Shown here: one piece after another, positions 3,104 to 12,585 of the stretch
How positions within the stretch are numbered: the first letter of the stretch is position 1
How the letters are laid out: the number at the start of each line of letters is the position of its first letter
Origin: Pseudobdellovibrionaceae bacterium
GTDB taxonomy: Bacteria; Bdellovibrionota; Bdellovibrionia; Bdellovibrionales; Bdellovibrionaceae
DNA: 64,000 nucleotides
NCBI GenBank assembly: GCA_019637915.1
Contig: JAHBUV010000001.1
Coordinates: 2,946,565 to 3,010,564, forward strand
Direction: 5' to 3'
Translations under genes and position numbers: made by a program
The notes under the pieces: model-generated
What the model was told of the DNA's origin: nothing
Seen by the model: the letters and a program-made list of their open reading frames with translations, nothing else
Database searches by the model: none

Positions 3104-4513
3104 TCAGTTAGTGCTCTTGAACAAGAACGGGTAAGTGACCATCACCTTGGTCCCCCCTTGCGGGGCGGGGAATCTCCAAGATGCGACCTTGTTCAGAATA
3201 CATCCTTCGACGGTCGCGTTTTTCAATGTGGTGTCGCCGATGTTCTGGCTTTCCACCGAGCCGGTCGGGCCGATGGTGAAGCGCACGGCGACTTTCCCGA
3301 AGAGGTCGGGGTTCGCCGACAGCTGGCGTTCGTAACAGTAAAGGATCTGTCCCAGGTAGGACTTGATCGTCTGGGCGATGATCTCGCGGTCGAGGCCGCC
3401 GGAGATTTCCGATTCGTCCTCGATCAGACCGACGCCGCCGGAACCGGTGTTGCCCGCGGCCAGGGTGCCGAGACCGCCGACGGCGCGACCGCCGCCGCGA
3501 CCCGAGGTCGAGACGGTGACGCCGGAACCGGTGGCCGCCGCGTTCCAGTCGCCGCCGCCGCGATCGACCTTGCCGAGCGCCGCGAGGGCGGCGCCGGAGG
3601 GGCCTTCACCGGCTTTGATGCCGTTGCCGACGATGACCTGCTTGCTGCGCGCGGCCTGGGCCGAGACTTTGCCGAGGAGTTGCGACAGACGGCCCGAGTT
3701 GACGGCGCGGAGCATGCCGGCCACGCGACCGCCCGGGGCGTCCTTGGGTTCGCCCACCGCGGGAGCCGGCATTTTTTCCAGCTTCTTCTCGACGGCGGAG
3801 CCTTTTTTGACTTTCATCGGGGCGATGGCCACCGTCACCTTCTGAGGGATCGGGGGCAGGGTGGCGATGGGCTCGAGTTTCTGCGAGCGCGGTCCGTAGA
3901 GCGCGATGCCGGCGAAGAGCACCGAGCACAGGACGACGATGACGGCGCCGCGGCGGCTTTCGGCGTCCATGGCTTTGGCCGGGTTCATGCGCGTCAGGTC
4001 CTTGTCGGAACCGAGGTGCACGGGGCGGCGGAGCACGACGACGTTGTCGCCGGCGAGTTCGCGGGCGGCTTTGGCCTGCGCGGACTCCTTGGCGCCGCTT
4101 TTCAGCACCTTGGTCGACAGCACGCGGCCGCCGAACTTCACGATCTCGAGATCGAAGGTCGAGGTGCCGATGGCCGGGTCGGCCGCCGTGGTCTTTTCCA
4201 GGCGTTCGTAAAGACTTTGATCTTTTTGTAAAAATTGAAAACTGAGCTCGGAGCCGGCCAGACGAATGACCGTGTTCTCGTTCTGGATCTCGGTTTCCGC
4301 CGGTTGGTCCAGGGCGGACTCGTTCATGTTGAGCCAGTACCAGCGGCCTTCGCGGCATTCGAAAACGCCCTCGATGCCCTTGGATTGCGGGTCCATGGAC
4401 GAGAGTTTCGCCAGGCGGGAAGAGCCCAGGGTGATCGTGGACGTGCCCGGGCGCAGGCGCCAGGTGCGGGCGGAGCCATTCTCAAGATTCTGTCGGACGA
4501 CGAGTGTTCTCAT
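3104..4513 (-). CDS. FHA-like / single TM / AgmX-PglI C-terminal domain protein (GltG-like)
   Basis: 469 aa from the ATG at 4513, chosen because GGAG lies 6 bases upstream; an ATG at 4525 would add four residues. The N-terminal ~100 residues look like a degenerate FHA fold (RLRPGTSTITLGSSRL, then EGRWYWLNMN). One TM helix follows (about residues 189-207, AVIVVLCSVLFAGIALYG), then a long Gly/Ala/Arg-rich periplasmic linker. The last ~98 residues match the AgmX/PglI tail (TonB-like): ILYCYERQL, GKVAVRFTIGPTGSV, a second Cys in VEGCI, and WRFPAPQGG ending YPFLF. Cytoplasmic FHA plus TM plus TonB-like tail is the architecture of Myxococcus GltG. It probably couples the inner-membrane motor to the periplasmic and outer-membrane parts. 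Confidence 0.8.
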   Translation of the reverse strand: MRTLVVRQNLENGSARTWRLRPGTSTITLGSSRLAKLSSMDPQSKGIEGVFECREGRWYWLNMNESALDQPAETEIQNENTVIRLAGSELSFQFLQKDQSLYERLEKTTAADPAIGTSTFDLEIVKFGGRVLSTKVLKSGAKESAQAKAARELAGDNVVVLRRPVHLGSDKDLTRMNPAKAMDAESRRGAVIVVLCSVLFAGIALYGPRSQKLEPIATLPPIPQKVTVAIAPMKVKKGSAVEKKLEKMPAPAVGEPKDAPGGRVAGMLRAVNSGRLSQLLGKVSAQAARSKQVIVGNGIKAGEGPSGAALAALGKVDRGGGDWNAAATGSGVTVSTSGRGGGRAVGGLGTLAAGNTGSGGVGLIEDESEISGGLDREIIAQTIKSYLGQILYCYERQLSANPDLFGKVAVRFTIGPTGSVESQNIGDTTLKNATVEGCILNKVASWRFPAPQGGTKVMVTYPFLFKSTN

Positions 4514-4526
4514 TTTTCGCTCCATA

Positions 4527-4808
4527 TCACTTCACGTAAAAGGAGCTTTCACGAATGCGGCTATCCATGTCCTTCTTTACGTCATGAAGGGGCAGGAACT
4601 TAAGGCCGCGCTTCTGCACGAGATAGGCGCCGTCCGGGTTGCGGATCGTGCCCTTCAGGCTCATCTCGTCGAAGTTCACTTCCTGAACGCGACGAATCGT
4701 CTTCTTTGTTTTGGCGGGGGCGTCGACCGAGACCAGGCAAAGAGCCAGGATCGCGATGACACCGACAATCTTCGTTTCCATTGAAACCGTCCTTGTCCGT
4801 GTCAACAT
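4527..4808 (-). CDS. Small exported protein of the Glt-like cluster
   Basis: 93 aa. The ATG at 4808 follows the stop of the 1247-aa gene by one base and has GGAG six bases upstream inside that gene. A second ATG at 4781 (METKIVGV) has AAGGA 8 bases upstream and would give an 84-aa product with a tighter signal peptide; either start is plausible. The signal sequence IVGVIAILALCLVSVDAPAK is followed by about 60 basic and acidic mixed residues. No known domain was recognised. Its size and position suggest an accessory periplasmic component. Confidence 0.65.
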   Translation of the reverse strand: MLTRTRTVSMETKIVGVIAILALCLVSVDAPAKTKKTIRRVQEVNFDEMSLKGTIRNPDGAYLVQKRGLKFLPLHDVKKDMDSRIRESSFYVK

Positions 4809-4809
4809 C

Positions 4810-7800
4810 TCAGTCTCCGGAGGTGACGTTCAAGCCGACCTTGAAGTTGACTTTCAAATACTCTTTTTTGCGTTGCAACCATTCCTTCTGAGCGGGATCT
4901 TTCGCCAGCCGCAGGGCCTTTTCGTAGGCTTCCAGGGCGGGCACCGGGGCGAACTTGTAGACTTCGTTCAACCGTCCTTGTTGAATCAGCAGCTCGGTGT
5001 TCGTTCCCATCGCCGTCAGGTCCGTGATGAGCTTGAGAGCGCCGTCCAGTTCGCCCGCTTGCGCCAGGCTTTCGCTCAAGAGGGGTCCCAAGTTCAGATG
5101 ATAGAGTTCCTGCCTGGAAAATCCACCGAAAAGCGTTTTGACGGCCTTCGAATCTCCCTCTGAGAACGCCTTGAAACCCTTCAATATTCCGATTTCCGTC
5201 GAACTCATGGACGTGCTCAGAACCTTGGCGATTTCCGAAGACGCCGAGGTGCTGTCGTCGAGCTGGATCAGCAGGCGAGCCTTCTCATAGTGGATCAGGG
5301 CGTGCGCCGGGTTTTCCTTCTCGGCGAGGTTCAGCATCCACAGGGCTTTCGTGGGCATGCCCTTGGCGTCGGCGATCAGCGCCAGGTGGTGGAAGCCGCG
5401 CACGCGCTGGGCCTTGTCCTGGGTCATTTCGCGGGCCGATTTCTCGGCGATGTCGTACTGACCGGACATGAAGCAGCGGTGGAAAACCGGTTTCCTGGCG
5501 TCGCAGGCGGATTTCTTTTCCGCTTCGGCGCGGTCGATCTTCCGGGCGTCCTCGGACCAGTCTTCCGGCACGTAGGGCTTCAGGAAGGTCCATTTGGCGG
5601 GCACCATGGGGGCGGGCGTGGTGTCGCCGCCCAGGTCCTCCCAGCGCGATTGCGGGGCTTCCCCGGAGGCGGCGCTGGCCAGCCCGCGGATCTGCTTGCG
5701 GTTGTCGTCGCGCTTGTCCCGGATCGGGACGAGGATCTTGGCGATCTCGCTCTTCAGGGCCTTTTGATCCGCTTCCTCGAGGCCCGGGGGCAGGGGCAGG
5801 TGCTCCAGCACCTCCACGAGGTGGCTGTAGCAGCGGTCGACGCCCGAGAAGGAGTCGGCGAGGATCTTCGGGTTCGAGGTCATCTTCGAGGCGCCGAGAT
5901 AAGCCGTTTGCGCTTTTTCCAGGCGTTCGAGTTTCATCGCGAGGATGTTGCCGAAGCGCTCGACTTTCGAGGTCTTCACGGACTGGCCGATGAATTCGCG
6001 CTCGAGGATGCGCGCCTGGATCAGGCGGGCTTCGGCGCGCAGCTCGGAGGGCGCGTCGCGGGAGATGATCTTGCGCGCGGCCTCGAAAGCCTCGGTGCGC
6101 TTGCCTTTGTCCATCATGTCCTGGGCCCGTTTGGTCAGGATCTGGGTGGCGAAGGGCTCGAGGTTCTGTTGCAGCACCAGGTTCTCCAGCCGCGTGATCT
6201 CGGGCGATTGCGGGTCTTTGCGGAACGTCTGCAGCAGTTTATTGTACAAACGCGAGCGGTCGGCGGCGGGCGCGTTCGGCAGCAGGTTGTTGTAAAGGGC
6301 GCGGGCCTCTTTGAAGTTGTTCTCCATCAGGTAGAAGTCGCCGGCGGATTCGAGATGGGCGGCGCGGTTCTTCGGCTCTTTGTCGGCGATCTGCTTGAGC
6401 AGGCGCGCGGCCTTTTCCATTTCACCGGCTTCGGCGCTGACCCGGGCGGAGTCCTTCAGGGCGGCGAGCAGGCGGGGATCGGAGTCGTTTTTGCTGGCGA
6501 AGGTCTCGATGGAGGCGGCGGCGGACAGGCCGCGGCCCTCGACGAAATCCAGGGCGGCGGACTGGTACAGCGCCTCGTTGGCGAGCTTCGATCCCTCGTG
6601 GGCCTTGGCGAATTCGCGCAGGCGGTCGGCGGCGACTTTTTTGTCCACCGTCTTCAGGTCGCTCTGCATGGCGGAGTAGGCGGACTCGATCTCGATCTTC
6701 TTGAGGTTGTCGCGGCGCTTGGCGTCCGTTTCACGCTGGGAGAAAACCTTGGCCTGGGCGGAGAGGCCCTTGAAGTCCTTCTTCAGGTTCAGGATGTCGA
6801 GGGCGAGGTCCTCGGCCTTGATCTGCAGGCCGCGGCCGGACTGGCCGATCAGCAGCGGCTCGAGCCATTTGCGTGAACCGTCCAGGTCCTGTTCTTCATA
6901 AAAAATGGCGGCCATGCGGAAGGTGACGTCGCCGGCGTGATCGCCCTTCGGGTGGCGCTTCAGGTAAAGCTGCGCCAGGTCCTTGCGCTTGGCCTCGAAC
7001 AGGGAGGTCTTTTTCTTCTCGATGGCTTTTTCCATGGAGAAGAGCGCGCCGTAGTCGGCGTCGTGCAGGCTCGGCAGCTTCTTGATGCCGGGCGCATCGT
7101 CGTCGTCCTCGTCTTTTTGCGCCTTGCCCTTCGCCGCGGTCTTCTGGGTCTGCTTCAGGTTCACCAGGCTTTCGGCGCTGCGATGGTAGTTGTCGGAGGC
7201 CTCTTCGAAGCGGCCCAGCTGGAAAAGCAGTTCGGCGTAAGCGAAGCGCGAGCTGATGTCGGGGGCCGCCGGGTCCTCGTTGTCGAGGACGACCTTCAGG
7301 GCCTGCTCGGTCAGGTTGGAGAATTCCTTGTGGCTTTTGTTCTTCTGCCACACGTCCCACCACTTGCCGGCGATCTCGTGGGATTTGCGGGTGAAGGCGC
7401 CTTCGCAGGAGGCTTTCAGGGTTTCGGCGTCCTGCTTGGCTTTCCAGGACGATTTCGGGCCGCAGGTCTCGGCGGCGGCGCGCAGGTTGTCGAGCACCTT
7501 GTCGCGCTGTTTGAGGGATTCGTTGCCGTCCACGAGCACGAGGATGGCTTTCACGCGGGTGGGGTTCGACGGGTGCTTGCGCAGGAACTCGTCGAGGAAG
7601 ATGTTGATCTCCTTGTAACGGCTGTGGGACAGGTAGAGGTTCGCCATGTCCATCATCGACTGGCCGAGCTCCTCCTCTGTGGTGATCTTCTTGAAGAAGT
7701 CGTAGAGGTCGTCGGCGGACTTGCTGTCGGCGACGAAAATGCCCAGGTCGCGCAGGGCCTCGCGGCGCAGGTTCTGGCGGTTCCTGTCCTCGCCGCTCTC

Positions 7801-8553
7801 GTCCGGGGCGCTGGCCTTCACCACCTCGATGAGTTTCTTGGTGCCGAGTTCGGCGTCCTTCATGTTGTAGTGGGCCCAGGCGGCCTTGTAGAGGGCGTAG
7901 GTGTAAACGCGGGACTTCGGGTATTTTTCGACCAGGGCCAGGTGATTGAGGGCCAGGGCGAAACGGCGCTGGTCGTAGGCGAGTTCGCCGAGGGCCACGG
8001 CGGCGTCGGGCACCAGGGCCGAGTTCGGGCGCTTGTCGATCATGCGCTGGTAGAGCGCTTCCGACTCGCGGATCTTGCCGAGCTGCTGGTTGGCGAAGGC
8101 GTTGTTGAACAGCACGGAGTCGATCTCGCGGTAGTTCGGGAATTTCTTTTCGATCTCGTAGTAAACGCCCGAGGCCTTGCGGATCCAGTCCGCGCCTTTT
8201 TCCGACGGGATCGGGAAGGTCGAAAGCTTCAGGGTTTTCGAGTTCTGGTGAAGGTCGAAGAAACGGCCGGTGCGCGAACGGCGCATGTAGAGCTCGGCCA
8301 GGCGGTGCTGCAGGCCGGATTCCTCGGAAGTGCCTTTTTTCTTGGCCAGGAGTTTCTGCAGGCTCTGGATGGCCTTGGTTTCGGCGTGGGTGATGAGCAG
8401 CTCGGCCTGAACGGCGCGGCGCTCGTTCTCGTTTTCGTTCTGCGAATCCATGCGGACCTCCGGGAGGAGGCCGCGGTTGTCATCCTTCGCTTGGGTGGAC
8501 AGAGGAAACGTGCCGAGGAGTCCGATGAGCGCGATTTTCGAAATAAGCTTCAT
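4810..8553 (-). CDS. Large exported TPR protein (GltD/AgmU-like)
   Basis: 1247 aa, signal peptide MKLISKIALIGLLGTFPLSTQA. Nearly the whole mature chain is TPR-type helical repeats: patterns such as ALYQRMIDKRPNSALVPDAA and ALYNNLLPNAPAADRSRLYN recur throughout, broken by charged linkers near residues 475-500 and 990-1010. No TM helix after the signal is visible. Its length matches Myxococcus AgmU/GltD (about 1200 aa, a periplasmic TPR protein of the gliding complex), and it lies directly between the ExbD genes and the AgmX-tail gene. Function by analogy: scaffold carrying motor force through the periplasm. The specific orthology is inference; TPR proteins align loosely. Confidence 0.78.
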   Translation of the reverse strand: MKLISKIALIGLLGTFPLSTQAKDDNRGLLPEVRMDSQNENENERRAVQAELLITHAETKAIQSLQKLLAKKKGTSEESGLQHRLAELYMRRSRTGRFFDLHQNSKTLKLSTFPIPSEKGADWIRKASGVYYEIEKKFPNYREIDSVLFNNAFANQQLGKIRESEALYQRMIDKRPNSALVPDAAVALGELAYDQRRFALALNHLALVEKYPKSRVYTYALYKAAWAHYNMKDAELGTKKLIEVVKASAPDESGEDRNRQNLRREALRDLGIFVADSKSADDLYDFFKKITTEEELGQSMMDMANLYLSHSRYKEINIFLDEFLRKHPSNPTRVKAILVLVDGNESLKQRDKVLDNLRAAAETCGPKSSWKAKQDAETLKASCEGAFTRKSHEIAGKWWDVWQKNKSHKEFSNLTEQALKVVLDNEDPAAPDISSRFAYAELLFQLGRFEEASDNYHRSAESLVNLKQTQKTAAKGKAQKDEDDDDAPGIKKLPSLHDADYGALFSMEKAIEKKKTSLFEAKRKDLAQLYLKRHPKGDHAGDVTFRMAAIFYEEQDLDGSRKWLEPLLIGQSGRGLQIKAEDLALDILNLKKDFKGLSAQAKVFSQRETDAKRRDNLKKIEIESAYSAMQSDLKTVDKKVAADRLREFAKAHEGSKLANEALYQSAALDFVEGRGLSAAASIETFASKNDSDPRLLAALKDSARVSAEAGEMEKAARLLKQIADKEPKNRAAHLESAGDFYLMENNFKEARALYNNLLPNAPAADRSRLYNKLLQTFRKDPQSPEITRLENLVLQQNLEPFATQILTKRAQDMMDKGKRTEAFEAARKIISRDAPSELRAEARLIQARILEREFIGQSVKTSKVERFGNILAMKLERLEKAQTAYLGASKMTSNPKILADSFSGVDRCYSHLVEVLEHLPLPPGLEEADQKALKSEIAKILVPIRDKRDDNRKQIRGLASAASGEAPQSRWEDLGGDTTPAPMVPAKWTFLKPYVPEDWSEDARKIDRAEAEKKSACDARKPVFHRCFMSGQYDIAEKSAREMTQDKAQRVRGFHHLALIADAKGMPTKALWMLNLAEKENPAHALIHYEKARLLIQLDDSTSASSEIAKVLSTSMSSTEIGILKGFKAFSEGDSKAVKTLFGGFSRQELYHLNLGPLLSESLAQAGELDGALKLITDLTAMGTNTELLIQQGRLNEVYKFAPVPALEAYEKALRLAKDPAQKEWLQRKKEYLKVNFKVGLNVTSGD

Positions 8554-8578: not shown

Positions 8579-9076
8579 TCAATTTCCCAGCATGGTCACC
8601 ATTTTCAGCTGAGGAAATCCCGCCATCGATGCCGTATAGAGGACTTTCCGCAAAGTATCGTAGGGAAGGCGGGCGTCGGCTTGCAGCAACACGCGTCCTT
8701 CTTTGAGATACTCCTTATCCTCTTTGTTTTCGGCGAGTTTGTTCAGTTCATTAAATAATTGAGGCAAAAAATTGGGGTCTTTCACGTCCGTGTCTTTGGT
8801 CTGGAACCGCTTGTTCTCGAGCGTCGCCAGCACATGGTCGCCGATGCGCAGCTCGTTCTCGCTCACCGTGAGCTTGACGCCTTCAACCGGATTTAAATTC
8901 GTGTTCGAAGAGGGCAGGCGCATGCCCGGCAGCGGTTCCATCTGGACCGAGGCCGTGGAGAAGGTCTGCAGCAGGAACACGAGCAAAAGAATGAACATGT
9001 CCGTCAGCGAGTTGATGTTCAGCGCGAAGCTCGACGGGCGCTTCGCGGCGACTTGGAAACGGCGGCGGCGGCTCAT
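8579..9076 (-). CDS. ExbD/TolR-family stator subunit (channel Asp present)
   Basis: 165 aa. A short basic cytoplasmic N-terminus (MSRRRRFQVAAKR) precedes one TM helix, NINSLTDMFILLLVFLLQTF (residues 21-40). The TM motif aligns with the ExbD/TolR pattern N-x-x-P-x-x-D, and the proton-handling Asp (D27) is kept, although the usual Pro is Leu. The periplasmic part ends with VLLQADARLPYDTLRKVLYTASMAGFPQLKMVTM, typical of the TolR/ExbD fold. It overlaps the upstream exbD by four bases (ATGA), so the two are translationally coupled. Equivalent of one of Myxococcus AglQ/AglS. Confidence 0.9.
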   Translation of the reverse strand: MSRRRRFQVAAKRPSSFALNINSLTDMFILLLVFLLQTFSTASVQMEPLPGMRLPSSNTNLNPVEGVKLTVSENELRIGDHVLATLENKRFQTKDTDVKDPNFLPQLFNELNKLAENKEDKEYLKEGRVLLQADARLPYDTLRKVLYTASMAGFPQLKMVTMLGN

Positions 9077-9627
9077 AGTCCACTCTCCAGGCTGTTGGCG
9101 AAGACCACTTCCGGGAACATGAAGGGCGTCTGCACCTGCTTGTTCTGTTGGGCGTCGAACACCGGGAAGGTGATCTGCTGGTCGCGGGGACGGCGCGCTT
9201 CGTCCATGGTGCGGACGATGTCGCCGTACTCGACGCCGGCGCGGGGCACGAGGTCGATCTGGAAAACGTCCGGGTGGGACTTCTTCAGGGCGACGAGGTT
9301 TTCGTGCAAGGCCGGGAAATCGAGGGCGCCGTTCTTGAGGGCGACGGCGGACTCTTTTTCCTGGCCTTTTTCCGTGACGTAGATCTTGAAGCCGGCGGCG
9401 TTGTCGATCTCCAGACGGACTTTGGCGAGGTTCTTGTTCGGGTCGTTGTTGTTCTGGATGGCTTCCTTCACGACCTGCGGCAGCTCGGTCTCGATCACCA
9501 TGAGCTGCACGAAGGCCGAGCTCAACAGCATGACCGGCACGAGCTTCATGATCACGGCCAGAAGCGGAGCCAAATCCAGTTCGAATTCACCTGTCGTATC
9601 GTGATGCATCCAGCGGCGTCCGCGCAT
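9073..9627 (-). CDS. ExbD/TolR-family subunit lacking the conserved TM Asp
   Basis: 184 aa. The N-terminus MRGRRWMHHDTTGEFELDL is followed by one TM helix from about residue 19. The signature reads DLAPLLAVIMKLVPVMLL, which aligns with the family pattern N-x-x-P-x-x-D-V-M-L-V-L-L. The position of the essential Asp is Ala, and a Lys sits four residues later in the helix. The periplasmic domain (about 45-184) keeps the ExbD layout, with EYGDIVRTMDEARR near the end. It forms the second half of a tandem exbD pair downstream of exbB. Losing the Asp in one member suggests a non-equivalent ExbD dimer. Confidence 0.87.
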   Translation of the reverse strand: MRGRRWMHHDTTGEFELDLAPLLAVIMKLVPVMLLSSAFVQLMVIETELPQVVKEAIQNNNDPNKNLAKVRLEIDNAAGFKIYVTEKGQEKESAVALKNGALDFPALHENLVALKKSHPDVFQIDLVPRAGVEYGDIVRTMDEARRPRDQQITFPVFDAQQNKQVQTPFMFPEVVFANSLESGL

Positions 9628-9653: not shown

Positions 9654-10364
9654 TTAAGAGGCCTTGATGTTCGGATTCGGGGGTTGCACCGAGGGCGCGA
9701 CGCCGTTGTCCGGGAACAGGGTCTGGCGGGTCAGGTTCGGGATGTGGGCGCTGGTCAGCAGTTCCGTCAGCTTCGAGCACTTCTCCGTGGCTTGTTCGAT
9801 CAGGCTGTTCTGACGCGACACCAGGAAGGAGTAGAGCACCATGGCCGGGATGGCGACCACGAGACCGAGGGCCGTCGTGTACATGGAGACGGAGATCCCG
9901 TTCGCCAGCAAGTGCTGTTTGGCGGCCGGGTCGGCTTGCGCCACGGCTTGGAAGGAGAGGATCAGACCGTGGATCGTTCCCAACAGACCGAGCAGGGTGG
10001 CGACGTTGGCGAGCATGCTCAGGTAGTGCAGGCGGCGCGTGTAGAGCGGCACCGCTTCCGACATGGCGATGTCGTGGGCCTGGAAGATGGTCTCGTCGTC
10101 GCGGTCGGCTTTTTCAAGGATGGTCTTGAAGGCCTTGGCGAGGGGTTTCGACTCCATCTGCGAGCACAGCACCAGGGCCTCGTCGACTTTGCGCGACAGC
10201 ACCAGGGTCTGGACGCGGTTCATGAATTCGTCGGCGTTCATGCCGTAGTGGAAATACAGGGCGCGCACGCGTTCCACGCAGAGAATGGCGGTGCCCACAC
10301 CGGTGAGAAGGATCGTCCAACCCACCACTCCGGATTCGTTCATAAATGCGAAAAATGCTGTCAT
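9654..10364 (-). CDS. ExbB/TolQ/MotA-family proton channel (AglR-like)
   Basis: 236 aa. The start is the ATG at 10364 (MTAFFAFMNESGVVGW), with GGAG upstream and an ATGA overlap with the GYF-PilZ gene; the open frame runs further upstream but that part is not coding. TM1 is about residues 12-32 (VGWTILLTGVGTAILCVERV). A cytoplasmic loop follows, then TM2 (LATLLGLLGTIHGLI-like, about 130-150) and TM3 (VSMYTTALGLVVAIPAMVLY, about 170-190), the classic ExbB/TolQ topology. It should form the pentamer that houses the two ExbD helices and supply proton-motive-force-driven rotation, like AglR in Myxococcus. Confidence 0.92.
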   Translation of the reverse strand: MTAFFAFMNESGVVGWTILLTGVGTAILCVERVRALYFHYGMNADEFMNRVQTLVLSRKVDEALVLCSQMESKPLAKAFKTILEKADRDDETIFQAHDIAMSEAVPLYTRRLHYLSMLANVATLLGLLGTIHGLILSFQAVAQADPAAKQHLLANGISVSMYTTALGLVVAIPAMVLYSFLVSRQNSLIEQATEKCSKLTELLTSAHIPNLTRQTLFPDNGVAPSVQPPNPNIKAS

Positions 10365-10951
10365 TGTCCCGTCTCCTTCAATTTTTGAGTCACGATTTTT
10401 TTGATTGAATGTTGGCCCGGCTCCGACACCTGCGTGAAGCGGACGGCGTAATGCAGGCCGGACTTCACGTTGAGGCGCGTGCGGGTGAAATTCTTGCGGA
10501 CGATCTCGGCCCGCAGGTTGAACGCGGGCAGGGCGTCGGTGACGCTGCGGAAGTGGATCAGCAATTCCTGGCCCGGCAGCATGAGGGGCGAGTTCAGCAG
10601 CAGGAGGGCGCCGTTCTCGCTCAAGGACAGGCTCTGCCCGTCGAAAAAGATCTGGCCGTTGTGGCCGTAGACGGGCAGCTGCACGTCGACCCGCGGGCAG
10701 GCGCGGTCTTTGAACGAGCCGCGCAGGCCGTCGGCGTTTTCGATCAGGCGGGCCAGGCGGTCCTTGGAGAAATCCGCCAGCTCGCCCACCAGGGTCCAGC
10801 TGTCGAGGTGCGGGGCCCACACGAAGTTGTAATCGTAGAGCTCGTTATTCTGCATCATGCGGATCATGGCGGAATACTCGAAGGGGCCGTACTTGTTCTC
10901 GCCGCGCAGAATGTACCATTGGTTCTGTACGGCTTGTGCTGTCGTATTCAT
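10361..10951 (-). CDS. GYF domain fused to PilZ domain
   Basis: 196 aa, cytoplasmic, no signal. Residues about 9-60 match the GYF_2 pattern: QWYILRGENKYGPFEYSAM, then a mid-domain W (VWAPHLDSW). Residues about 75-185 match PilZ: the RxxxR box is RACPR, the second box is SLSENGALLL, and a C-terminal strand reads GLHYAVRF. The second c-di-GMP box normally begins with D or N before x-S-x-x-G; here that position is Ser, so ligand binding may be weakened or altered. Myxococcus GltJ/AgmX carries a GYF domain in its cytoplasmic part. Here it is a separate protein joined to PilZ and translated just ahead of exbB, which suggests that c-di-GMP or a PilZ-mediated contact gates the motor. Confidence 0.85.
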   Translation of the reverse strand: MNTTAQAVQNQWYILRGENKYGPFEYSAMIRMMQNNELYDYNFVWAPHLDSWTLVGELADFSKDRLARLIENADGLRGSFKDRACPRVDVQLPVYGHNGQIFFDGQSLSLSENGALLLLNSPLMLPGQELLIHFRSVTDALPAFNLRAEIVRKNFTRTRLNVKSGLHYAVRFTQVSEPGQHSIKKIVTQKLKETGQ

Positions 10952-10975
10952 TTCCCGTCCCGTCCTTTCCGCCTT

Positions 10976-12085
10976 TTAGAGTTTCACCGATTTCGGGTCG
11001 AAGTAGATCCTCACGTCGGAGCCGGAGTTCGGCACGGCGTTGCCGTGGAAGCTGATCGACCAGTTGGCGGCGTCGTAGGTCCAGCCGTTGGTGGCGCTGT
11101 TCGGCACCGTCACGCCGTCCACGATCACCTGGATGGTGCTCGGGTGCGGTTCGCGATCGAGCTTGAAGACCGTCGAGAGCTCCATGATCTTGTCGGAGAT
11201 CATCTGCAGGGTCAGGCCGAAGTCGGCGCACAGCGAGCCCTTGGTGCCGCCCGTGGCGTCGGCCAGGGCCATGTAGCGCGTGCTGATCTTGCGTTGGAAG
11301 CCGTCGGTGGAGAGGGTGCTGCGGCAGGCGGCGTCCAGCACCGAGATGGTGCTGACGTTGTAGTTGCGGATGCCGCCGGCGGTGGAGTCCGTCAGCGTGT
11401 CCAGGAAGTTCGTGAAGCGCGAGATCGGGAACTGCTGGCTGTAGTTCTCGTTGAAGGTCAGGCTGTTGTCGCCGTTCTGCCAGTCGTAGTGGCTGAAGTC
11501 GTCCTCGTCGCTGACGATGATGATGGACAGGAAGGCGCCGGGGCGGCGGAAGTCGTTGTTGAGCGGGTTGCTGAGGGCGTGCTCGAAGCTCGAGAAAGCG
11601 CGCTCGTCGCCGCTGCCGCACACGCCCTGCATGGCGTTCTTCACGAAGACCTGGCTCAGGTTCGGCGTGTTTTTGTCCATGACGCGCACGCCGGAGATCA
11701 CGGCCAAGTCGTCGACGCAGTTGTCGGGGGTGCCGCGGATGTCGACGCCGCGGTCTTTGAGGCGTGAGCGGTTGTTGCTGTTGTAGTGGTAACCCAGATA
11801 CGCGTCCGTGGTGATGACGCCCATGCGGAAGTCGTAACCGAGGGTGCTGAAGCGGTTGATGAAGGACTGGAAGTTGGCGGCCAGGCGCTGCTGGCTGGTG
11901 TCCATCGAACCGGAGTTGTCGATGACCCACAGGATGTCGACGGGGCGTTGCACGTAGGCGACGTTCTGCTTGAAGGAGGATGACGCCGACATCAGGGAGA
12001 AGGAGTCCGTCGACTTTTCGCATCCCGTGAAAAGGGCCACGGCCGCAGACAGCAACAGCATCTTGTTGAGCATCCGGTTTTTCAT
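10976..12085 (-). CDS. VWA-domain lipoprotein, first gene of the Glt-like operon
   Basis: 369 aa from the ATG at 12085, which has GGAGG 8 bases upstream; upstream in-frame starts add a sequence without export features. The signal ends in lipobox LFTGC (Cys22). The VWA domain begins at about residue 45 with the MIDAS motif DNSGSMD (D56-S60), followed by IIIVSDEDDFSHYD later in the fold. The C-terminal ~90 residues (from about DREPHPSTIQVIVDGV) resemble a beta-sandwich. It should be an envelope-anchored, metal-binding adhesion-type protein. Whether it faces the periplasm or the surface cannot be told; there is no Asp at +2 (the residue is Glu). Confidence 0.85.
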   Translation of the reverse strand: MKNRMLNKMLLLSAAVALFTGCEKSTDSFSLMSASSSFKQNVAYVQRPVDILWVIDNSGSMDTSQQRLAANFQSFINRFSTLGYDFRMGVITTDAYLGYHYNSNNRSRLKDRGVDIRGTPDNCVDDLAVISGVRVMDKNTPNLSQVFVKNAMQGVCGSGDERAFSSFEHALSNPLNNDFRRPGAFLSIIIVSDEDDFSHYDWQNGDNSLTFNENYSQQFPISRFTNFLDTLTDSTAGGIRNYNVSTISVLDAACRSTLSTDGFQRKISTRYMALADATGGTKGSLCADFGLTLQMISDKIMELSTVFKLDREPHPSTIQVIVDGVTVPNSATNGWTYDAANWSISFHGNAVPNSGSDVRIYFDPKSVKL

Positions 12086-12585
12086 TTGATCAACCTCCTG
12101 GTCCATCGTCCTTGAGGATTCATGTCGCGAATCCGTGAATAGAATATCGGGCGCTAAGCAAAAACAAAAAGCCGCGCGCAAGTGCGCGACAGCACTGGCG
12201 GAAATTCCCGGAGTCCCTTTTCGGGACAATCCAAGTTGTTGAAATCCTTGGGCGGTCCCAAATCGAGCCGTTCGAAAAAATAGGGACGTCTGTCAAGGCG
12301 GTTCACGCTTTCCGCGGGATTCGCCCGGCGCCCGCGAATCAAGTTTGGAAGTCACCGGATAGTGCCCAACTCTTCGACGGCGGGGATCGGAGGAAGTTTC
12401 GAAGTGGCTGAGATTGTGGGGGAATTGTGCCTTGCTTCAGCGGGACGAGGGCGGTCTCCGGAAAAGCGCGGGGGGGCGCGCGGCGGACCGTCGGGAGCAC
12501 GGCTCTTCCCGTGGGAAACGGAAGATTTCACTTCCGGCGCCGGAAGCGATGCAGGTAAATTCGTGCTCTGGCAAGGGGGAGCGGT
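12086..12585. other. 500-bp divergent intergenic region
   Basis: This is the gap between the minus-strand Glt-like operon (start 12085) and the plus-strand hypothetical gene (start 12586). It contains a minus-strand terminator-like hairpin (12158-12188), a small inverted repeat GTCCC/GGGAC at 12213-12227, and a TTGACA hexamer on the minus strand at 12291-12296 without a good -10 at the right distance. The short ORFs in it have no ribosome site or domain. It probably holds the main promoter of the large operon, but no convincing promoter can be named. Confidence 0.5.
12158..12188 (-). terminator. Possible rho-independent terminator or leader attenuator
   Basis: On the minus strand, stem CGCGC, loop ACTT, stem GCGCG is followed by GGC and then TTTTTGTTTTTG. 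It lies 73 bp upstream of the first codon of the VWA gene. It could insulate the operon from read-through, or lie inside the operon leader. The stem is only 5 bp and the U-run is interrupted, so this is tentative. Confidence 0.4.

Follow-up and report, generated by a model that had tools for sequence, protein, structure and literature searches.

An operon of Bdellovibrionaceae encodes a tandem ExbD pair in which one member lacks the channel aspartate

The operon and its two ExbD genes

The window analysed here, a stretch of 64,000 nucleotides from a Pseudobdellovibrionaceae genome, carries on its minus strand an operon for a vWA/MIDAS lipoprotein, a PilZ protein, an AglR/ExbB protein, two ExbD proteins (ExbD-A and ExbD-B), a TPR protein, a small protein and a GltG-like protein. 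The genes, together with the codons of the ExbD residues discussed below, are as follows.

10976..12229, minus strand: vWA/MIDAS lipoprotein of the gliding-adhesin type; its position matches Bd1483
10361..10951, minus strand: GYF_2 plus PilZ protein of the c-di-GMP receptor type; ortholog of Bd1482
9654..10364, minus strand: pentamer subunit of the AglR/ExbB/TolQ type, 236 aa from the Met at 10364; Pfam MotA_ExbB 90.2 bits
9073..9627, minus strand: ExbD-A, 184 aa, ExbD/TolR-type protein without the channel Asp; Pfam ExbD 59.4 bits
9574..9576, minus strand: codon GAT for Asp18 of ExbD-A, six residues ahead of the channel site
9556..9558, minus strand: codon GCC for Ala24 of ExbD-A, at the channel-aspartate position
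9544..9546, minus strand: codon AAG for Lys28 of ExbD-A, in the same helix as Ala24 and four residues on
8579..9076, minus strand: ExbD-B, 165 aa, partner that retains the channel Asp; Pfam ExbD 52.9 bits
8999..9001, minus strand: codon GAC for Asp26 of ExbD-B, the channel aspartate
4810..8553, minus strand: large TPR protein, 1247 aa, probably periplasmic, matching TPR families; syntenic in B. bacteriovorus
4527..4808, minus strand: small protein, 93 aa, a conserved operon member with 61% identity to the syntenic B. bacteriovorus gene
3104..4525, minus strand: GltG-like protein with an AgmX/PglI (TonB-like) C-terminal domain (NCBIfam NF033768)

The operon is syntenic gene for gene with a locus of B. 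bacteriovorus kdesi (L074), which, like Bdellovibrio sp. qaytius (L079), is among the named relatives of the window in Bdellovibrionaceae. The reading frames of ExbD-A and ExbD-B share an ATGA, and so do those of PilZ and AglR. The true start of the lipoprotein lies within its ORF, upstream of the lipobox LFTGC, and the protein scored 58.7 bits against the NCBIfam MIDAS family adhesin and 46.4 bits against CglD, each below the respective cut-off. The GltG-like protein, a probable force transducer, scored 111.7 bits against NF033768 (cut-off 40) and gave a partial match of 136 bits, below the cut-off, to the GltG family. The order vWA-PilZ-AglR found in Bdellovibrionaceae (10361-12229 in the window) is replaced by PilZ-vWA-AglR in sister families (L096, L101 and L117). 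Moreover, the large TPR protein resembles its counterparts in the sister families only up to about residue 950, so that the C-terminal 300 residues may be peculiar to Bdellovibrionaceae.

The AglR/ExbB protein scored above the Pfam cut-off for MotA_ExbB (22.9 bits), and both ExbD proteins scored above that for ExbD/TolR (PF02472, 25.4 bits), which bears out the two ExbD ORFs that an earlier note on this DNA had placed on the minus strand at 9073-9627 and 8579-9076. The same note had reported an Ala instead of the channel aspartate in the first of them, with a Lys four residues on, and a retained aspartate in the second, and this is indeed how the helices read: E-L-D18-L-A-P-L-L-A24-V-I-M-K28-L in ExbD-A, and L-N20-I-N-S-L-T-D26-M-F, with an N20-x5-D26 spacing, in ExbD-B. 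The corresponding motif of E. coli ExbD is N19-V-T-P-F-I-D25. A shift in the alignment that would put Asp18 (of ELDLAP) on the channel site, which the earlier note had named as something that would refute its reading, is excluded: ExbD-A aligns across the helix without gaps to Asp-bearing orthologs, with NLAPMLD opposite DLAPLLA and with Pro31 and Phe39 common to both. The register is thus secure and there is no other Asp at the channel site. Since ExbD-A lacks the channel aspartate of a proton-conducting ExbD/TolR, which ExbD-B has, we class it as an ExbD-fold protein and not as a conducting ExbD. All the other ExbD-like proteins of the same genome (three further pairs and two singles) carry Asp at the site.

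The AlphaFold2 model of ExbD-A (mean pLDDT 76.7) consists of a membrane helix at residues 20-36 and a mixed alpha/beta domain, which is the layout of ExbD/TolR proteins, a single membrane span ahead of a TolR-like periplasmic domain. Foldseek assigned the TolR fold to the predicted periplasmic domain (best PDB match, TolR 5by4, E 7.9e-4), and a search of solved structures with ExbD-A returned remote TolR/ExbD matches only. As the predicted helix starts at residue 20, Asp18 would lie at its cytoplasmic mouth. In the model, Ala24 and Lys28 are on the same face of the helix, and Lys28 is the sole charged residue inside it.

Conservation of the asymmetry and its recurrence in other motors

We read the ExbD-A motif in orthologs from 131 genomes of Bdellovibrionota, counted apart from the paralogous motors L066-L069 and from a shortened, unreadable ortholog (L065). 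All 61 orthologs from Bdellovibrionaceae, B. bacteriovorus included, carry D18, A/S24 (Ala in 56, Ser in 5) and K28. In sister families, 24 orthologs carry D18 with A, S or G at position 24 and are devoid of the Lys, which is present in 61/61 Bdellovibrionaceae and in none of the other families. The remaining 46, distributed over the order, class and phylum, retain D24 and have N (45) or S (1) at residue 18. Accordingly, residue 18 is Asp in 85/85 Asp-less ExbD-A orthologs of this motor, and orthologs with Asp at both 18 and 24, or at neither, amount to 0/131. ExbD-B, for its part, has the channel Asp in every ortholog where it could be read. The earlier note had held that relatives with Asp in both members would speak against its proposal. 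Such relatives do exist (the 46 mentioned above), but they represent the outgroup condition that preceded the asymmetric form, and the conservation that the note had suggested checking is borne out by the 85 genomes in which ExbD-A has kept the Asp loss. Three observations go beyond that note: the replacement of Asn by Asp18 that accompanies the loss of Asp24, the limitation of Lys28 to Bdellovibrionaceae, and the occurrence of the same loss in other motors.

Within the 61 Bdellovibrionaceae, D18 is encoded by GAC (24) or GAT (37), K28 by AAG (32) or AAA (29), and site 24 by seven codons (GCG, GCC, GCA, GCT, TCG, TCC and TCA). Judging from these codons, in which synonymous positions vary while the residues are fixed, the ExbD-A site is under purifying selection, and the agreement among the 61 is far more than chance would give. 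Mean pairwise identities in the family are 80% for the membrane helix and 40% for the periplasmic domain of ExbD-A, of which the helix is the best-conserved part, and 74% and 43%, respectively, for those of ExbD-B. The conservation in 85 genomes and the purifying selection rule out a sequencing error, a pseudogene or a decaying duplicate, and we hold the sequence claims with high confidence. The gene order R-A-B is constant in the ortholog loci across Bdellovibrionota, and the ExbD-A and ExbD-B frames overlap or are at most 20 bases apart in 119/130 loci. Two genomes deserve separate mention. In G002, a complete, single-contig genome of Bdellovibrionaceae, one search at E 0.01 yielded no ortholog of the window type and another a paralog-level match only, so that it appears to be without this motor, yet its genus mates have one. 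Conversely, a MAG contig labelled Streptomyces griseus (L092, CALQIT020000121.1) carries a clear Bdellovibrionaceae version of the operon, and the label is therefore probably wrong.

Searching with the divergent match L068 disclosed a second, paralogous R-A-B motor set. The copy in the window genome (contig, about 704 kb; L008/L010) retains the Asp, and seven genomes of other families (L212-L218) have Gly at the ExbD-A channel site (e.g. PFIGLF), with D18 in two, N18 in five, and an ExbD-B with Asp. In another phylum, the MAG L121 (CP070719.1) displays Ser at the site of the first ExbD, as do 8/12 genomes of that phylum (L253-L260), and a further set in one of those Ser genomes (L262) presents D18/N24, an exact Asn/Asp swap (D-x5-N); there, all the ExbD-B partners read have Asp. 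In all sets read, every Asp loss fell on the first ExbD gene of the pair and none on the second. The presence of the asymmetry in a paralogous motor and in another phylum shows that the loss arose several times. A tree of AglR plus ExbD-B required eight state changes, at least five of them forced by well-supported branches, the exact number being soft with this quick method and the long branches present. For the orthologous set alone, a single origin of the loss was not rejected (AU p 0.35), and the best tree needs two changes, the second of which is due to one f5 genome (L045).

The perfect reciprocity of the orthologous set (D18 without D24 in 85 genomes, N/S18 with D24 in 46) and the exact swap of L262 in another phylum are what would be expected if the proton site had been relocated, so that Asp18, six residues towards the cytoplasm, replaced Asp24 as the ExbD-A carboxylate. 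However, the reciprocity represents one or two evolutionary events in that set, and in the predicted structure Asp18 stands ahead of helix 20-36, at the cytoplasmic mouth and not at the Thr ring. Other motors speak further against the idea, as they lost the channel Asp and acquired no Asp18, Asn18 having stayed in place in the paralogs (N18/G24 in five genomes) and in the other phylum (N18/S24). A displacement of the Asp by six residues was thus rejected as a general rule, and we consider relocation of the site quite improbable.

The AglR pore and the candidate axle

Alignment to solved ExbB and TolQ identified Thr130 and Thr164 of the window AglR as the equivalents of ExbB Thr148 and Thr181. 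Both threonines are invariant in 104 AglR sequences from all classes, which indicates that the pentamer has kept its part of the proton path, and profile and threonines together place the window AglR among the AglR/ExbB/TolQ/MotA pentamer subunits. An additional Thr163, adjoining the Thr181 equivalent, was observed in 56/59 AglR partners of Asp-less ExbD-A and in 6/26 partners of Asp-bearing ExbD-A (order and class). On the Bdellovibrionaceae branch, ExbD-B changed at three positions relative to its Asp (-6, Gln to Asn; -1, Val to Thr; +11, Lys to Gln), AglR gained His113 and Ser160, and ExbD-A gained K28. Such joint changes in sequence suggest that the three helices may meet in one pore; being all on one branch, they do not constitute independent evidence.

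The same branch invites a different reading of Lys28, namely that it is a charged partner in the pore, either of ExbD-B Asp26 or of a lipid, and that the complex would work as a gated or ratcheted channel instead of rotating freely. This would be in keeping with the invariance of Lys28 in Bdellovibrionaceae, with its being the only charge in the ExbD-A membrane helix and with the concurrent loss of the +11 Lys in ExbD-B, and the Arg-Glu pair of GldLM is a possible analogue. Against this, we looked in the AglR alignment for a conserved acidic partner in the membrane helices and found none, and a new acidic AglR mate for Lys28 was dropped. Since Lys28 is missing from all other Asp-less ExbD-A, the asymmetry cannot be explained by it, and we regard this reading as very improbable.

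The succession R-A-B, TPR protein and AgmX/PglI-domain protein is the gene order of AglRQS/Glt systems. The operon resembles M. xanthus AglR-AglQ-AglS in the R-Q-S order with two tandem ExbD/TolR-type genes, and Agl/Glt in the GltG-like partner with its AgmX/PglI domain and in the MIDAS adhesin. It differs in that one of the window ExbD proteins is naturally without the Asp, whereas in Myxococcus a conserved Asp is described in both AglQ and AglS (PMC9389320) and the AglQ D28N change abolishes proton conductance and motility (PMC3858216). With the 5:2 motors ExbB-ExbD, TolQ-TolR and MotA-MotB it shares the Thr pair of the pentamer and a partner that has one helix and a TolR-like periplasmic domain, but the paired helices of those motors are identical and each has its Asp. 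Heterologous pairs have been proposed as axles for TPH-vWA proteins with TolQ-like pentamers, in which, unlike here, the Asp is present in both members and each has a vWA domain (PMC12204202). In the papers searched we found no report of an ExbD without the channel Asp, nor one to this effect for the first ExbD of Bd1473-Bd1483, which is weak evidence of absence.

In the models for MotAB, ExbBD and TolQR, the channel alternates between two Asp at 36 degrees per proton (PMC12215075, PMC9389320). The asymmetry described above is old, selectively maintained and recurrent and, as far as sequences tell, agrees with a heterodimer of which one helix binds protons. We believe that the operon rather probably encodes an AglRQS-like 5:2 motor with an obligate A-B heterodimer as axle, a single Asp, a 72-degree cycle and 5 H+ per turn. 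The axle would be made of one ExbD-A and one ExbD-B helix with the membrane proton-binding carboxylate on ExbD-B only, and ExbD-A, with a neutral Ala or Ser at the site, would act as a permanently protonated helix. Since one of two helices would load a proton, there would be one transit per 72 degrees and 5 H+ per turn, as compared with 36 degrees and 10 H+. In Bdellovibrionaceae, the Lys located one turn above the vacant site, together with the changes in ExbD-B and AglR, would tune this asymmetric axle, and the proton-driven motor would be coupled to the GltG/TonB-like transducer, the TPR protein, the PilZ (c-di-GMP) regulator and the MIDAS adhesin. An A-A axle would be without a membrane carboxylate, and the A-B axle is the simplest functional arrangement that would account for both the constraint on ExbD-A and the constant Asp of ExbD-B. 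The requirement for each of aglR, aglQ and aglS in M. xanthus (PMC3858216) is consistent with both ExbD-type proteins acting together. The pairing of A and B in one pore, the altered step and the gliding role are what we infer from these data, with moderate confidence as to the heterodimer and its drive cycle; rotation itself is putative for this motor class as a whole.

The main rival to the A-B axle is a two-Asp axle formed by ExbD-B alone, with ExbD-A as an accessory or regulatory protein that becomes part of other complexes or closes inactive pentamers. ExbD-A and ExbD-B are separate genes, every ExbD-B read has the Asp, and, according to a review, AglQ/S may pair either as hetero- or as homodimers (PMC9389320), all of which would suit such a B-B axle. 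It is harder to reconcile with the tight gene coupling, with the concerted changes in the helices of ExbD-A, ExbD-B and AglR, and with the need of M. xanthus for both aglQ and aglS (PMC3858216). Moreover, the pore helix is more conserved in ExbD-A than in ExbD-B (80% versus 74%), which would be needless for an accessory protein outside the pore. On balance, we deem the B-B axle unlikely.

The A-B axle has its own demands. As AglQ D28N kills the M. xanthus motor, a one-Asp motor would not be trivially functional and would need compensation. As we read one turnstile scheme (PMC9389320, Fig. 6), the axle should stop turning when one site is always neutral, and a single-Asp axle would be tolerated only by the variant that allows rotation with both sites neutral, not by the strict rail version. 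Extending the A-B axle to the other Asp-less sets, we tentatively raise the possibility that natural single-Asp 5:2 rotary motors (5 H+ per turn, 72 degrees) have multiple origins, in Bdellovibrionota and in another phylum, and that two-Asp alternation may not be universal.

The orthologous operon of B. bacteriovorus

Strain HD100 has four operons of this kind, Bd0412-0420, Bd0828-0838, Bd1473-1483 and Bd2368-2377 (PMC2797640), and Luciano 2011 (PMC3169522), who described four core sets in Bdellovibrio, favoured Bd0828-0838 as the gliding set. The PilZ gene Bd1482 is at the 5' end of a gliding operon (PMC3271064) and AglR corresponds to Bd1481 (PMC2277423); therefore, the HD100 ortholog of the window operon is Bd1473-1483, in which, by gene order, ExbD-A is probably Bd1480 and ExbD-B probably Bd1479. 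Mutants with an insertion in Bd1481 or Bd1483 prey less well on thick biofilms (PMC2277423), and a 2026 review lists the gliding motor of B. bacteriovorus as unidentified (PMC13104615). A role in gliding or in the generation of surface force is likely for operons of the Bd1473-1483 type.

A selected one-Asp axle in predatory Bdellovibrio and its relatives would challenge the idea that both halves of the axle alternate. Moreover, a natural one-Asp pair makes both the dimer type of AglQ/S and the alternation directly testable in the tractable B. bacteriovorus: if a single-Asp axle turns, the alternation rule falls, and if it does not, the operon would represent a regulated or non-rotary device.
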